Shown here one piece after another: positions 22,276 through 28,576 of a stretch of DNA of 64,000 nucleotides. Position 1 is the stretch's first letter; each line of letters begins with the position of its first letter. This DNA is from Verrucomicrobiota bacterium (lineage in GTDB: Bacteria; Verrucomicrobiota; Verrucomicrobiia; Verrucomicrobiales; Akkermansiaceae): NCBI GenBank assembly GCA_004293445.1, contig RDYP01000001.1, forward strand, positions 186,001 to 250,000, read 5' to 3'. Under the pieces are notes generated by a model. It saw nothing but the letters and a program-made list of their open reading frames with translations. It searched no databases and was not told the DNA's origin. The position numbers and the translations under genes were made by a program.

Positions 22276-22356
22276 GGATCGATATTCCTCGGGGAAGGGG
22301 AAGGGGGCAAGCGGAATGAACGGGTTCGCTGGAGCGCGCTCCCCTCAGAAGCTCAA

Positions 22357-22388
22357 CAAGAATTAGCTAAGGCTAATATTTATTCTTG
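22357..22388. promoter_or_regulatory. Nested dyad, candidate DtxR/MntR-type operator
   Basis: ATTAGC (22362-22367), a 4-base spacer and GCTAAT (22372-22377) form a perfect dyad. It is enclosed by CAAGAAT (22357-22363) and ATTCTTG (22382-22388), which are also perfect inverse complements. The core TTAGCTAAGGCTAA looks like the TTAGG/CCTAA half-sites bound by DtxR-family repressors. It sits about 33 bases before ATG22421 of the metal ABC operon, whose third gene carries a DtxR/MntR-type domain. Metal-dependent autoregulation is the natural reading; it is inferred, not shown. Confidence 0.6.
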
Positions 22389-22420: not shown

Positions 22421-23365
22421 ATGGGACTTTGGCGAATGCGTTGGATGGCGACTGTCCTTGTCTTCCTTGGTTTCTCCGCTTGCGATCAGTCGCGGTCGTC
22501 TTCGGGTGGCAAGCCCTTGGTGGTGGCGACCACGACCATGGCGGCGGATTTGGTTTCGCGGATTGCGGGCGATCGGGTTGAGTTGCGCGGCTTGATGGGG
22601 CCGGAGGTGGACCCGCACAATTACATCCCGACCCTGCCGGACAGCTCCTTGCTAGAGCGCGCCGATGTTATCGTTTACTCCGGCTTGCACCTCGAAGGGC
22701 GTTTGCAGGGGACCTTGGAAGCGATGGCTGGGCGCGGTAAGCGCTGCGTGGTCCTCGCGGATGGGGTTGGGGAGGAGCGACTTTTGTCGCCGCAGCAGGG
22801 CTTCGAGGGCACGCCGGACCCTCATTTCTGGGGCGACCCTCTGTTATGGAGGGATACGATTCCCTCCGTCGTGATGGCCTTGAGCGAGGTTTTACCGGGG
22901 TCCGCCGCAGAATTCGAGACAGGGGGACGTGAGCTCGCGGATGAACTTTTGGAGCTTCACGCTTGGGCGAAATCGAGGTTGCAGGAGATTCCGGCCGAGC
23001 GGCGTGTGCTAGTCACGAGTCACGATGCCTTCTTTTACTTCGGCCGCGCATTCGGAGTCGAAGTGCGGGGTTTGCAGGGCGTGAGCAGCGCGGCCGAAGC
23101 GGGCTTGAAAGATCGCAGCGATCTCGTGGCATTCATTCGTTTGCGTGGGATCCGCAGTCTATTCGGAGAGAGTTCAGTGAATGACAAAGGTATCCTTGCG
23201 GTGGCGAAGGAGGCCGGGGTTTCAGTTTCCCCGGAGCCATTATTTTCGGATGCGATGGGGAGACCCGGGGATCGGGTCGAAGTGGCTGGTGAGTCCTACG
23301 ATCGCGGGACTTACGTCGGGATGATCAAGCATAACGTGAACACGATCGTGGGGGGATTGAAATGA
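22421..23365 (+). CDS. Metal-binding lipoprotein, TroA/YtgA/MntA-like
   Basis: The solute-binding subunit of a cluster 9 (Mn/Fe/Zn) ABC importer. It has 314 residues with a lipoprotein signal ending FLGFSAC (lipid-modified Cys21). Metal ligands fit the TroA pattern of three His and one Asp: His66 in DPHNYIP, His135 in DPHFWGD, His201 in SHDAFFYF and Asp277 in LFSDAMG. FGESSVNDKG is the usual late block. There is no His-rich loop of the ZnuA kind, so Mn2+ or Fe2+ is more likely than Zn2+; this is inference. Its stop overlaps the ATPase start by 4 bases (ATGA). Confidence 0.9.
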   Translation: MGLWRMRWMATVLVFLGFSACDQSRSSSGGKPLVVATTTMAADLVSRIAGDRVELRGLMGPEVDPHNYIPTLPDSSLLERADVIVYSGLHLEGRLQGTLEAMAGRGKRCVVLADGVGEERLLSPQQGFEGTPDPHFWGDPLLWRDTIPSVVMALSEVLPGSAAEFETGGRELADELLELHAWAKSRLQEIPAERRVLVTSHDAFFYFGRAFGVEVRGLQGVSSAAEAGLKDRSDLVAFIRLRGIRSLFGESSVNDKGILAVAKEAGVSVSPEPLFSDAMGRPGDRVEVAGESYDRGTYVGMIKHNVNTIVGGLK

Positions 23366-24129
23366 AAGAAGTGCCGGTGCTTGAGGCTCACGATCTGTGT
23401 GCGAGTTATCGTCGGAGACCCGTGCTGCACGGGGTGGATGTCGCCTTGCCGAAGGGTGTCTTGGTGGGCCTGTTGGGGCCGAATGGAGCGGGGAAGTCGA
23501 GCTTCCTGAAAGCGGTGATGGGTGAGCTGAAGCCGGACAGTGGTTGGGTGAAATTGTTCGGTGAACCTGTCTCTCGCGCGCGGCACCGGGTCGCCTACGT
23601 ACCGCAGCGGGAAAGCGTCGATTGGGATTTTCCTGTGACCGTGGCGGATGTGGCCATGATGGGAACCTATGGCGGGCTGGCTTGGTGGCGTCGCGCTGGT
23701 GCGCAAGAGCGCGGGCGAGCGATGGAAGCGCTGGATCGGGTCGGGATGGCGTCCTTCGCCAGGCAGCCAATTGGCGAGCTCAGCGGAGGTCAGCAGCAGA
23801 GGGTTTTTCTCGCGCGAGCTTTGGCACAGGATTCGGAATTGCTTTTGATGGACGAACCCTTCGCGGGGGTGGATGCGGCCACGGAGGAATCGATTGTCGA
23901 CGTATTGCGCGAACTGCGTTCGGCGGGTCGGACGGTTTTGGTGGTGCATCATGATTTGCAGACCGCTCGGCGATACTTCGATCTCCTGATGATCCTGAAC
24001 TTGCGGGTCGTTGCGTTTGGAGCGACCGAGGAGGTTCTGACGAGTGGAAATTTGGATGCTGCTTATGGTGGTCGCCTCACCTTGCTGAACGAGGTGGCGT
24101 CGCGTTCAGTCGTGGGAGGAAAAATGTGA
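23362..24129 (+). CDS. Metal ABC transporter ATPase, YtgB/MntB-like
   Basis: A 255-residue nucleotide-binding subunit of the metal importer. Walker A is GPNGAGKSS, the Q-loop region is VAYVPQRESVDWDFPVTVAD (typical of Mn/Zn transporters), the ABC signature is LSGGQQQRVFLARAL, Walker B is LLLMDEPFAGVD, and the switch His is in VVHHDL. A purine-rich GGGGGGATT ribosome binding site lies in the end of the upstream lipoprotein gene, and the starts and stops are coupled. The permease-repressor gene follows after one base. Confidence 0.93.
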   Translation: MKEVPVLEAHDLCASYRRRPVLHGVDVALPKGVLVGLLGPNGAGKSSFLKAVMGELKPDSGWVKLFGEPVSRARHRVAYVPQRESVDWDFPVTVADVAMMGTYGGLAWWRRAGAQERGRAMEALDRVGMASFARQPIGELSGGQQQRVFLARALAQDSELLLMDEPFAGVDAATEESIVDVLRELRSAGRTVLVVHHDLQTARRYFDLLMILNLRVVAFGATEEVLTSGNLDAAYGGRLTLLNEVASRSVVGGKM

Positions 24130-24130
24130 G

Positions 24131-25399
24131 ATGATCGAGTGGCTCCATACTGCTGCGGGTACCGCCATGACTGCAGCCTTCCTTTTGGGCATCAGTGGCG
24201 GCCTGACCGGGGTGTTCGTCGTTTCCCGACGGATGGCGCTCACCGGCGATATGTTATCGCATGCGGTTCTGCCGGGAGTGGTTGGGGGCATTTTATGGGG
24301 TCCGGGCCGTCATCCGCTTGTGGTTTTGGGCTGCGCGGTGGTGGCGGGTTTGGTTGCAGCCGGTTTGTTGATGGCGCTGATGCGAAGCACGCGGCTGAAA
24401 TCGGATGCCGCTCTTGGCATCGTGCTCTCGGTTTTTTTCGCGCTCGGACTAGCGATGATTTCCAAGTGGAAGCCGGGGGGAGTGCAGGCCTATCTCTTCG
24501 GCCAAGCCGCGGCGATTTCTTCGGGGGATTTGATTTTGTTGGCGTGTAGTAGTGGCGTGGTTGTGTTAGGCGTTATCTTCGGATTTCGAGTGCTTCTGGT
24601 ATCGAGCTTCGATCCTCAACACGCCCGTTTGCTGGGGATTCCGGTCGGGTGGGTCGACAGGTGCTTTTTTATCGCGTTGTCCGTGTCGGTGGTGGTCGCG
24701 ATGCAGGCGGTTGGAGTGGTCTTGGTCTCGGCATTGTTGGTAACGCCTGCGATCGCGGCGGCTCGGATGAGTCGGCGCTTGGTCTCGCAGGCGTGGTGGG
24801 CTTGTGGATTCGGAGTGGCGGGGGCCTTGGTGGGCGTCTGGCTTTCCTTGTTGCGACCCGGCCTGCCGACAGGCCCTTTGATGGCGCTGTCATTGGCGGT
24901 ATTGTTTGTAGCTGCGGCGCTCTTCGGGCCGCGTGATGGCTTGCTTCAGCGGGGGCTTGGACGGATGCGTCAGCGGCGGCGGATCGATACGGAGAATCTC
25001 TTGAAATCGGCGTGGGTGCTGATGGAAGAGCGCGCGTGCTCTGAATTAGCGATTGATATCCTGGCAGAGCGTGTCGGTGTCTCCCGAAAAGGGATTCGGC
25101 GCTGTGTGGCGTCCTTGGTGCGGGAATGCGATGCGGAGCTTGTTGAGTCGGGCTTTTCGCTTACCCCGAGCGGCCGGCGTCGGGCATCGGAGATCGTGCG
25201 GAGGCATCGCTTGTGGGAGCTTTATCTGATGCGTCGGGCGGATTATGCGGCGGATCATGTTCACGATGATGCGGAGCGCGCGGAGCACTGGATCAGTGGC
25301 GAGATGGAACAAGGTCTGGCGAAGATGCTCAATCACCCCGACGTGGACCCACATGGAAGCATCATCCCGCGCGGAGTAGAAAGAGAGGAAGGTCGGTGA
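24131..25399 (+). CDS. ABC permease fused to DtxR/MntR-type repressor
   Basis: A 422-residue chimera. Residues 1 to about 268 are a cluster 9 permease with about eight membrane helices, including MALTGDMLSHAVLPGVVGG and FDPQHARLLGIPVGW. Residues about 280-345 form a winged helix (LAIDILAERVGVSRKGIRRC, then LTPSGRRRA). Residues 346-415 match the DtxR metal-binding/dimerisation domain: HRLWE (His359, Glu363) and VHDDAERAEH (His378, Glu382, Glu385, His386). Glu382 stands where DtxR has Cys102 and MntR has Glu, which hints at Mn2+. Chlamydial YtgC-YtgR has the same fusion and is cleaved to free the repressor; whether cleavage happens here is unknown. The stop overlaps the next GTG start by 4 bases. 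Confidence 0.88.
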   Translation: MIEWLHTAAGTAMTAAFLLGISGGLTGVFVVSRRMALTGDMLSHAVLPGVVGGILWGPGRHPLVVLGCAVVAGLVAAGLLMALMRSTRLKSDAALGIVLSVFFALGLAMISKWKPGGVQAYLFGQAAAISSGDLILLACSSGVVVLGVIFGFRVLLVSSFDPQHARLLGIPVGWVDRCFFIALSVSVVVAMQAVGVVLVSALLVTPAIAAARMSRRLVSQAWWACGFGVAGALVGVWLSLLRPGLPTGPLMALSLAVLFVAAALFGPRDGLLQRGLGRMRQRRRIDTENLLKSAWVLMEERACSELAIDILAERVGVSRKGIRRCVASLVRECDAELVESGFSLTPSGRRRASEIVRRHRLWELYLMRRADYAADHVHDDAERAEHWISGEMEQGLAKMLNHPDVDPHGSIIPRGVEREEGR

Positions 25400-26280
25400 G
25401 CCTCGAGTCGTGGATCGAGCCCTGGCGTTCGCCTGGCAATCTATGGTTGCTGGGAACGGCGATACTTGTCGCGTTTTCCTGCGCGTTGCCAGGTGTGTTT
25501 CTTCTCTTGCGGCGGATGGCCTTGGCGGGGGATGCCATCACTCACAGCGTGTTGCCGGGGATTGTCGCGGGCTTTCTGCTGGGTGGCAGCTTGGACTCGC
25601 CTTGGTTGCTTTTGGGTGCGGCCTTGGCCGGCTTGGCCTGCGTGCTGTTGATCGAGTTTCTGCACCATACTTTGGCGCTGCGGGAAGATGCCGCAACCGG
25701 GATAGCCTTCACCACCTTCTTTGCGGTCGGGGTTTTGGGACTGCGGCTCTTCGCGTCCAAGATCGACCTCGATCCGGACTGCGTAATCTTTGGATCTTTG
25801 GAAACGGTGGTGCATGGCGCCCGTCTGTCGTTCAGGTCGATGCAGGTGCCTGCTGCCTTCGTCAGTGGTGCGGGAGCTGTCGTGGTGGGGGTGCTCGCGG
25901 TCATGGTTTTTGGTCGTCGGTGGACGATTGGAGCCTTCGATCCCCTTCATGCCCGTTGCTTGGGATTTGAGGACGGAAGGGCTCGTGCTGTGTTGCTTGG
26001 ATGGACTGCGATGATGGTGACTTCGGCGTTCCAATCGGTTGGGGCCATCCTAGCGGTCGCCTTGCTTGTCCAGCCGGGAGCTTGTGGCTTGCTTGTCGCG
26101 AGGAGGGTTCCCGGGGTTTTGATAGTGGCCGGCCTTCACTCGGTCCTGTCGGCTCTATGCGGTTTTTATCTCGCATGGTTCGCAGCAATCAATGCGGCGT
26201 CGGCGATGGTGTTGGCGGGCTTTGCGTGGCTTTGCATCGCCTGGGGCTACTCCTTGTTGCGCGGTGGGCGGGGTGCTTGA
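25396..26280 (+). CDS. Metal ABC transporter permease, YtgD/MntD-like
   Basis: A second cluster 9 permease, 294 residues and about eight membrane helices, without any cytoplasmic extension. Conserved blocks are RRMALAGDAITHSVLPGIVA (the family signature loop) and FDPLHARCLGFEDGRARAVL. It starts with GTG25396, overlapping the fused permease-repressor stop (GTGA). It would pair with the permease half of that protein. Gene order (lipoprotein, ATPase, permease-repressor, permease) is that of chlamydial ytgABCD. The DUF2238 gene starts 78 bases later. Confidence 0.9.
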   Translation: MSLESWIEPWRSPGNLWLLGTAILVAFSCALPGVFLLLRRMALAGDAITHSVLPGIVAGFLLGGSLDSPWLLLGAALAGLACVLLIEFLHHTLALREDAATGIAFTTFFAVGVLGLRLFASKIDLDPDCVIFGSLETVVHGARLSFRSMQVPAAFVSGAGAVVVGVLAVMVFGRRWTIGAFDPLHARCLGFEDGRARAVLLGWTAMMVTSAFQSVGAILAVALLVQPGACGLLVARRVPGVLIVAGLHSVLSALCGFYLAWFAAINAASAMVLAGFAWLCIAWGYSLLRGGRGA

Positions 26281-27061: not shown

Positions 27062-28576
27062 ATGAATGCTTATCCGTCACCAGTTTGTCAGGAACGGCGA
27101 AATGCCGTTCAACGTTCGAGCGCCTCCTGTTTAGCGGGCTCTCCGTTTGAAATCTCGGGTGAGACCGATGCTCCGTGGCGAGGATTGCAAGGTCTGCGGA
27201 GCCCTCAGACATCGATGCTCCCGGTGGGTAGCGAATTGGATTTAGACCGCAGCGTGCTGCGCGCCATTCGTCAGCAGGCCGTGCCTCTTACTGGCGAGTT
27301 GGACCAGCTCGATGGCTTGCTTGAGATGATTGGAGATGCGGGTGTGGTTTTGCTGGGCGAGGCCTCGCATGGGACCCACGAGTTTTATCATCTTCGGGCC
27401 GAATTGACGCGGCGCTTGATCGTTGAGAAGGATTTTGCGGCCGTTGCGGTTGAAGCGGATTGGCCGGATGCTTGGCGGGTGAATCGGTATGTCCTGGGCG
27501 ATTCGGATGACTGTTCGGCGGTCGAGGCGCTCCGAGGCTTTGAGCGATTTCCGGAATGGATGTGGCGGAATACCGAAGTTTTGGATTTTGTCGCATGGCT
27601 GCGGGATCACAACGCGAACGTCGCAACAGAGGAGGGCCGAACGGGATTTTACGGGCTCGATCTTTATAGCCTGCATCGTTCCATGAGCGAGGTTATCGAT
27701 TACCTTTCACGGGTTGATCCGGAGGCAGCGGAGCGCGCGCGGATTCGTTATGGATGTTTGGATCGCCATGGGCCAGATCCTCAGAATTACGGGCTATTGG
27801 CGATCAGCGGGGTCGATGCAAGCTGTCGTGAAGAGGTGTCGCGGCAGCTTGCCGAACTGCGGGCGATGGAGGCGGAGTTGCTTTCTCGCGACGGTCGACC
27901 AGCGCTTGATGCGTATTTCTTCGCCGAGCAGAATGCGCGCCTGGTGGCGAATGCTGAGGCCTACTATCGGCAGATATTTCGCTCCGATGTCTCGACGTGG
28001 AATTTGCGCGACCAGCACATGATGGAGACTTTGGTCGAGTTGATGGCGCATCTGCAGACGGTAGAGGGGCGGGCGAAGGTGGTGGTATGGGCACACAATT
28101 CCCATCTCGGGGATGCTAGGGCGACCGCGATGGCGCGTCGTGGCGAGCGAAATCTCGGACAACTCGTGCGCGAGACCTTTGCGACGCAATCCCGTCTGAT
28201 CGGCTTCACGACCTATGCCGGCACTGTGACCGCGGCGACCGGTTGGCATTCGCCTGGACGTCAGATGTCGCTGCGACCGGGGCAGGAGGGCAGCTATGAG
28301 AAACTATTCCATCAAGTGGGAATCCCGGCGTTTTGGCTCGATCTGAGCGACGGCAATCCGGCGGCTTTGGGATTGCGAGAGCCTCGCCTCGAAAGAGCGA
28401 TTGGTGTCGTCTATCGACCCGAACGTGAGGCGCGGAGCCATTACTTTGAGGCCTGCCTCGGACGGCAATTCGACGCGGTAATCCATCAGGACCTGACGAG
28501 GGCCGTCGAGGTTCTCGATCATCCCGGAGAATGGCCAGTCGACGAGGCCCCTGAGACTTTCCCCCATGGTCTGTGA
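27062..28576 (+). CDS. Erythromycin esterase family protein
   Basis: A 504-residue protein of the EreA/EreB-like fold. The signature VLLGEASHGTHEFYHLR carries Glu100, His103, His106 and Glu107 of the proposed active site. AVEADWPDAWRVNRYVLG and KVVVWAHNSHLGDARAT are further conserved blocks. The first 50 residues are not conserved; ATG27215 (MLPVGSELDLDRS) may be the true start. Most chromosomal members have not been tested for macrolide hydrolysis, and many carry other predicted hydrolase roles, so resistance should not be assumed. Neighbours give no clue. Confidence 0.85.
   Translation: MNAYPSPVCQERRNAVQRSSASCLAGSPFEISGETDAPWRGLQGLRSPQTSMLPVGSELDLDRSVLRAIRQQAVPLTGELDQLDGLLEMIGDAGVVLLGEASHGTHEFYHLRAELTRRLIVEKDFAAVAVEADWPDAWRVNRYVLGDSDDCSAVEALRGFERFPEWMWRNTEVLDFVAWLRDHNANVATEEGRTGFYGLDLYSLHRSMSEVIDYLSRVDPEAAERARIRYGCLDRHGPDPQNYGLLAISGVDASCREEVSRQLAELRAMEAELLSRDGRPALDAYFFAEQNARLVANAEAYYRQIFRSDVSTWNLRDQHMMETLVELMAHLQTVEGRAKVVVWAHNSHLGDARATAMARRGERNLGQLVRETFATQSRLIGFTTYAGTVTAATGWHSPGRQMSLRPGQEGSYEKLFHQVGIPAFWLDLSDGNPAALGLREPRLERAIGVVYRPEREARSHYFEACLGRQFDAVIHQDLTRAVEVLDHPGEWPVDEAPETFPHGL

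Follow-up and report, generated by a model that had tools for sequence, protein, structure and literature searches.

A DtxR-derived domain fused to the permease of a verrucomicrobial TroABCD-type importer as a possible membrane-tethered metal sensor

The operon and its fused permease

The window, by which we mean the whole 64,000-nucleotide stretch of DNA that was analysed, contains an operon of four genes, A-B-CR-D, which overlap or abut one another and whose product is a TroABCD-type metal importer (Table 1). The gene order is that of chlamydial ytgABCD, as the initial annotation had proposed, and open reading frames and Pfam agree on its further point that a single polypeptide, the product of gene CR, carries a full cluster 9 permease together with a DtxR-type metal domain. 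The best solved relative of the gene A protein is TroA of Treponema pallidum (1toa, E 3.2e-60), and the ligand motifs DPH, DPH, SHDAF and SDAMG are kept. A manganese-specific binding protein was considered and dropped because the third of these motifs is the TroA-like SHDAF, so that Zn, Mn or Fe are all candidates. The operon is followed by a DUF2238 membrane protein and then, at 27062-28576, by an erythromycin esterase-family protein (PF05139, E 2.7e-128); elsewhere in the same genome there is a second, unfused ABC-3 permease (L002, G000:C34:15990-16775) that probably belongs to a separate zinc-type system.

Table 1. Features of the importer operon in window coordinates
Feature	Position	Strand	Remarks
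Operator-like palindrome TTAGC-TAAG-GCTAA, MntR-type box, upstream of gene A	22363..22376	.	
Gene A, metal-binding lipoprotein, TroA/ZnuA family	22421..23365	+	PF01297 E 2.8e-62
Gene B, ABC ATPase	23362..24129	+	
Gene CR, permease-DtxR-like fusion, 422 aa, ~45 kDa	24131..25399	+	ATG start, no internal stop
CR residues 11-265, ABC-3 permease domain	24161..24925	+	PF00950 E 1.6e-57; hydropathy
CR residues 285-299, end of Arg-rich linker and helix 1, N289 at the DtxR M10/MntR D8 ligand position	24983..25027	+	
CR residues 300-343, HTH-like stretch including ILAERVGVSRKGIRRCVASL	25028..25159	+	no PF01325 match
CR residues 345-414, DtxR metal-binding/dimerisation domain	25163..25372	+	PF02742 (Fe_dep_repr_C) E 1.3e-23
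Gene D, second permease, unfused in the window	25396..26280	+	PF00950 E 1.7e-37

The C-terminal region of CR is charged and non-membrane according to hydropathy. It had been described as a winged helix plus a metal-sensing domain of DtxR/MntR kinship, and the kinship is confirmed by the PF02742 match and by the structures of SloR, DtxR, IdeR and MntR, which align to this part of the protein with E down to 5e-18. The metal-sensing domain also stands, with the ligands H359, E363, H378, E382, E385 and H386 (assigned by alignment columns and numbered from the sequence). The winged helix does not: Pfam gives no match to PF01325, the N-terminal DNA-binding domain of DtxR, at residues ~280-340, and the region yields only an HTH-like hit to PF25213 that stays below threshold. 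That said, the HTH resemblance of ILAERVGVSRKGIRRCVASL is retained in the window copy, and this particular domain may still bind DNA. A single-sequence AlphaFold model of residues 269-422 was discarded (pLDDT 57, pTM 0.40).

Occurrence and ancestry of the fusion

Sampling covered two phyla, Verrucomicrobiota and Chlamydiota, and a fusion was counted as full-length when the match extended beyond about residue 396. By this measure ~38 of the 289 genomes sampled from the phylum have full-length fusions, as do ~41 of 60 in the family, so the fusion is no sequencing artefact. Chlamydial genomes were reached through the chlamydial 16S signature, and 25 of the 29 genomes found in this way carry the fusion, as do 17 of 18 from the genus Chlamydia itself; a search of plasmids returned unfused permeases only. 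The EUB338-III probe is specific to Verrucomicrobiota, and its 16S signature occurs in 11 of 18 genus-mate genomes, which upholds the assignment of the genome to this phylum; the site is absent from the window's own assembly, the 16S gene presumably lying outside it. As a kind, the permease-repressor fusion is already known: orthologous fusions in 11 phyla were reported by Thompson et al. (2012), as related in a later review (PMC5599777), and the novelty that had been attached to its presence outside Chlamydia was overstated.

Common ancestry of the window fusion with chlamydial YtgCR (CT069), which belongs to the iron importer ytgABCD, is supported by comparison of both halves of the protein. 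A maximum-likelihood tree was made from 102 permeases, those of D type and the unfused ones serving as outgroup. In it all C-type fused permeases, namely verrucomicrobial types A and B, those of environmental chlamydiae and those of Chlamydia, form one clade (SH-aLRT 100) that contains neither unfused permeases nor D partners. The repressor halves of the fusions match those of chlamydial YtgCR with E 1e-39 in hhalign. Chlamydial fusions form a clade of their own (100) that groups with type B (support 92, not starred) inside the verrucomicrobial fusions, and because they are nested in this way the fusion was not exported by the chlamydiae. This suggests a single origin of the fusion before the lineages split, or else a very early passage between phyla. 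The earlier proposal that the fusion predates chlamydial parasitism or has spread within the PVC group is thus upheld as far as shared ancestry goes, while the tree leaves the choice between descent and transfer undecided.

The exact position of the window permease within type A is uncertain. The end branches of both window permeases are unusually long, at 1.32 for the fused one and 1.71 for the other where the median is 0.33. The genome, at 3.35 Mb, is also smaller than those of genus-mates (4.2-7.8 Mb); accelerated evolution or genome reduction is possible.

A variable DNA-binding half and operators that follow stand-alone regulators

The comparison took in 96 distinct fused domains and 34 stand-alone members of the family from the same phylum, and PF02742 matches every one of these proteins. 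PF01325 is found in 32 of the 34 stand-alone proteins and in none of the 96 fused domains (0/23 type-A, 0/36 type-B and second fusions, 0/37 chlamydial). Pairs that share 60-70% identity in the metal domain are 47% identical in the HTH segment among stand-alones, versus 28, 24 and 20% among type-A, type-B and environmental chlamydial fusions, and at 70-80% metal-domain identity the values are 52% versus 31, 30 and 31%. The spacing from helix 1 to the metal domain (M10 to T65) is 51-57 residues in stand-alones versus 33-70 in fusions, and in several fusions it is too short to leave room for a winged helix. Moreover, the recognition helix of stand-alone MntR, ISQASVTNML, is conserved across these genomes and its fused counterpart is not. 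Profiles of fused and stand-alone domains nevertheless align over their full length, which identifies the HTH segment as a decayed or remodelled descendant and not an unrelated insert. Every fused group keeps helix 1 and the H79/E83/E105/H106 columns with little or no variation, and the ENxLK motif of helix 1 is kept in type-A and chlamydial fusions. Loss of the N-terminal metal ligand in the fusions was considered and rejected, the M10/D8 position being N, H or D; N occurs there in 10 of the 34 stand-alones as well. Taken together, these comparisons show a DNA-binding half that has degenerated throughout the family, and the idea that the domain, tethered or released, represses its own operon is poorly supported outside the genus Chlamydia.

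The palindrome in front of gene A is embedded in a longer imperfect inverted repeat (22355-22384, outer arms 22357-22363/22382-22388), and a search of its surroundings gave no sigma-70 consensus promoter. Its type, TTAGC-N4-GCTAA, resembles the E. coli MntR box. Allowing at most one mismatch, this box stands upstream of most type-A operons and is nearly absent elsewhere in those loci, and most type-B operons (16 of the first 20) carry a different box, TTTGA-N4-TCAAA, the form of two treponemal tro operators in work on TroR, TTTGATGCATCAAA and TTTGATATATCAAA (PMC2628430). Each box comes with its own kind of stand-alone regulator. The window's own genome encodes a stand-alone MntR (G000:C48); besides the window, the MntR-type box and an MntR gene of the L060 type occur together 22 times (17 type-A and 5 type-B operons), and the TTTGA-N4-TCAAA box occurs 19 times without MntR and with a TroR/DtxR-type gene instead. 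There are two exceptions, a draft genome that is 84% complete (G302) and a genome with both regulators, the TroR type being adjacent (G252). Fisher's exact test gives 5e-10 for this pairing, a value inflated by kinship; on the tree the operator has switched three times independently, each time matched by the regulator, although three pairs alone cannot reach significance. Six operons fit neither box at the threshold (G298, G332, G229, G131, G164, G211), among them two that carry a GTAGC-N4-GCTAC box beside an E. coli-type MntR (G164, G211) and one from a fusion genome that lacks any PF01325 protein and likewise lacks a box (G332). At one locus (L080) mntR is divergent to the operon with the box in between. 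Six fusion operons with the TTTGA-N4-TCAAA box lie beside a stand-alone TroR/DtxR-type gene (L084, L090, L093, L095, L097, L099). Since operator type tracks the stand-alone regulator and the fused recognition helix is variable, the simplest reading is that the operator of the window operon would be read by MntR rather than by the fused domain.

A different explanation, modelled on YtgR, would have the C-terminal domain cleaved off, dimerise with metal and repress its own operon at the palindrome. Besides the shared ancestry with YtgCR and the HTH-like stretch kept in the window protein, it can point to the box itself, which is the sole exact copy in the 3.35-Mb genome, as expected of an autoregulator, and to the release of YtgR from the fusion and its repression both in Chlamydia and in E. 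coli (PMC5599777, PMC7755916, PMC6504234). It has to contend with the lack of PF01325 in any fused domain, with a recognition-helix region that varies among type-A proteins having a common operator, with operators that change along with the stand-alone regulator, and with the unfused operons of the window's own genus, on which the same box is found. We regard it as unlikely, and the initial view of the fused domain as repressor of its own operon is not supported, given a degenerate DNA-binding half and an operator type that follows stand-alone MntR or TroR across the fusion genomes.

A proposed sensor on the transporter

We propose, with a probability of slightly over one half (about 0.52), that a stand-alone MntR is the repressor of the operon and that the domain on the permease senses metal at the membrane, to which it is tethered, and feeds back on transport. 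MntR of the same genome would bind the palindrome and repress transcription there, and the fused DtxR-derived domain would no longer be mainly a DNA-binding repressor but a cytoplasmic sensor tethered to the transporter, where metal is predicted to bridge the dimerisation domain and helix 1, the latter being connected to the last transmembrane helix. At high cytosolic metal the resulting change would most likely lower transport, by analogy with trans-inhibition in ModBC and MetNI, so that the fused sensor would provide rapid feedback on uptake and MntR the slower transcriptional control. The proposal is built on the loss of PF01325 with the ligands kept, on operators that follow regulators, on the box shared by unfused operons, and on the existence of double fusions, to which we return below.

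Counter-evidence comes from Chlamydia trachomatis: reporter and pull-down assays show repression and promoter binding by its YtgR, a member of the same fusion family (PMC6504234, PMC5599777); within the genus the released protein acts at ytg and trpRBA (PMC6504234, PMC7755916). The HTH segment of the genus Chlamydia is 61% identical at 60-70% metal-domain identity, as conserved as in stand-alones, and the Chlamydiota are mostly without a stand-alone member: in 36 of the 38 chlamydial genomes that have a PF02742 protein, the fused protein is the only one. The full-length alignment of the profiles and the plausible HTH stretch of the window also count against a sensor without DNA binding. The repressor role may be real in the genus Chlamydia and yet not be the general role of the fusion. 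We consider, tentatively and at somewhat less than even odds, that the fusion of Verrucomicrobiota and environmental Chlamydiota represents a new allosteric control, in which the metal switch of a repressor, freed of DNA binding, serves as a feedback brake on an ABC importer; YtgR of Chlamydia would then have taken on a secondary or special role after its lineage had lost the stand-alone regulators.

Two observations on the Chlamydiota may be added. In the genus Chlamydia (L160-L171) the HTH segment is conserved even though it gives no PF01325 match; in environmental chlamydiae it is not conserved. A shared palindrome upstream of chlamydial operons was looked for and none was seen; in many environmental chlamydiae (L245-L253) gene A follows directly after an unrelated upstream ORF with almost no gap, and these operons may have no promoter of their own.

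YtgCR is a well-known oddity of Chlamydia, a repressor welded to a membrane permease. A free-living relative in which the fusion occurs together with its own MntR gene and an evident operator allows the role of transport sensor to be separated from that of repressor in a harmless organism; YtgCR shares the fusion, gene order and permease clade with it and differs in its conserved, though non-canonical, HTH and in genomes without a stand-alone member. It also calls for caution, as a 'permease-repressor fusion' annotation should not be taken to mean transcriptional control in proteins with a degenerate DNA-binding half. Treponema TroABCD-TroR resembles the present system in TroA, which among solved structures is nearest to the binding protein, and in the operator that TroR shares with the TroR-regulated type-B relatives, but TroR is a separate DtxR-family protein, whereas the window operon has an MntR-type box and its domain sits on the permease. 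MntR, both of Bacillus subtilis (1ON1) and of the window's own genome, has the same metal-binding/dimerisation domain with ExxEH and His ligands; it differs in a canonical HTH with D8/E11, positions taken by N289/K292 in the fused domain, which PF01325 does not match. For ModBC and MetNI the shared principle that we propose is a substrate-sensing cytoplasmic domain on an importer. Their trans-inhibition domain is carried by the ATPase and has an unrelated fold; that of the window is on the permease and is DtxR-derived. ABC importers with domains of this trans-inhibiting kind have been reviewed (PMC10710835).

Two further possibilities concern what the domain does besides, or instead of, sensing for transport. 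It might damp transport and also, free or tethered, help MntR at the promoter, or sequester or feed MntR. Intact metal ligands and dimer surface would suit such a dual device, as would the coexistence of the fusion with stand-alone regulators in most verrucomicrobial fusion genomes, but the analysis revealed no operator signature peculiar to the fused domain, and we hold it to be quite unlikely. Alternatively, the domain could be structural or serve metal delivery (dimerisation, assembly or metal hand-over) without any regulatory effect. Conservation is indeed concentrated in the dimerisation/metal domain, and double fusions would put two copies into one heterodimeric transporter; the full set of sensor ligands is retained, helix 1 included, as would be expected of a switch more than of a scaffold, and we find this possibility improbable. 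Double fusions also speak for the tethered sensor, and they would set two sensor domains next to each other. Such fusions, in which the D permease also has a DtxR-like domain of its own, occur in several genomes of the phylum: both permeases are fused at L009, L017, L019, L021 and L027 (genomes G047, G268, G074, G121 and G038, respectively), and further cases are found in G046, G059, G015 and G157. The metal ligands are kept in all five double fusions examined, and in three of them (L009, L017, L019) the HTH region of the second copy is ~12 residues below canonical length.
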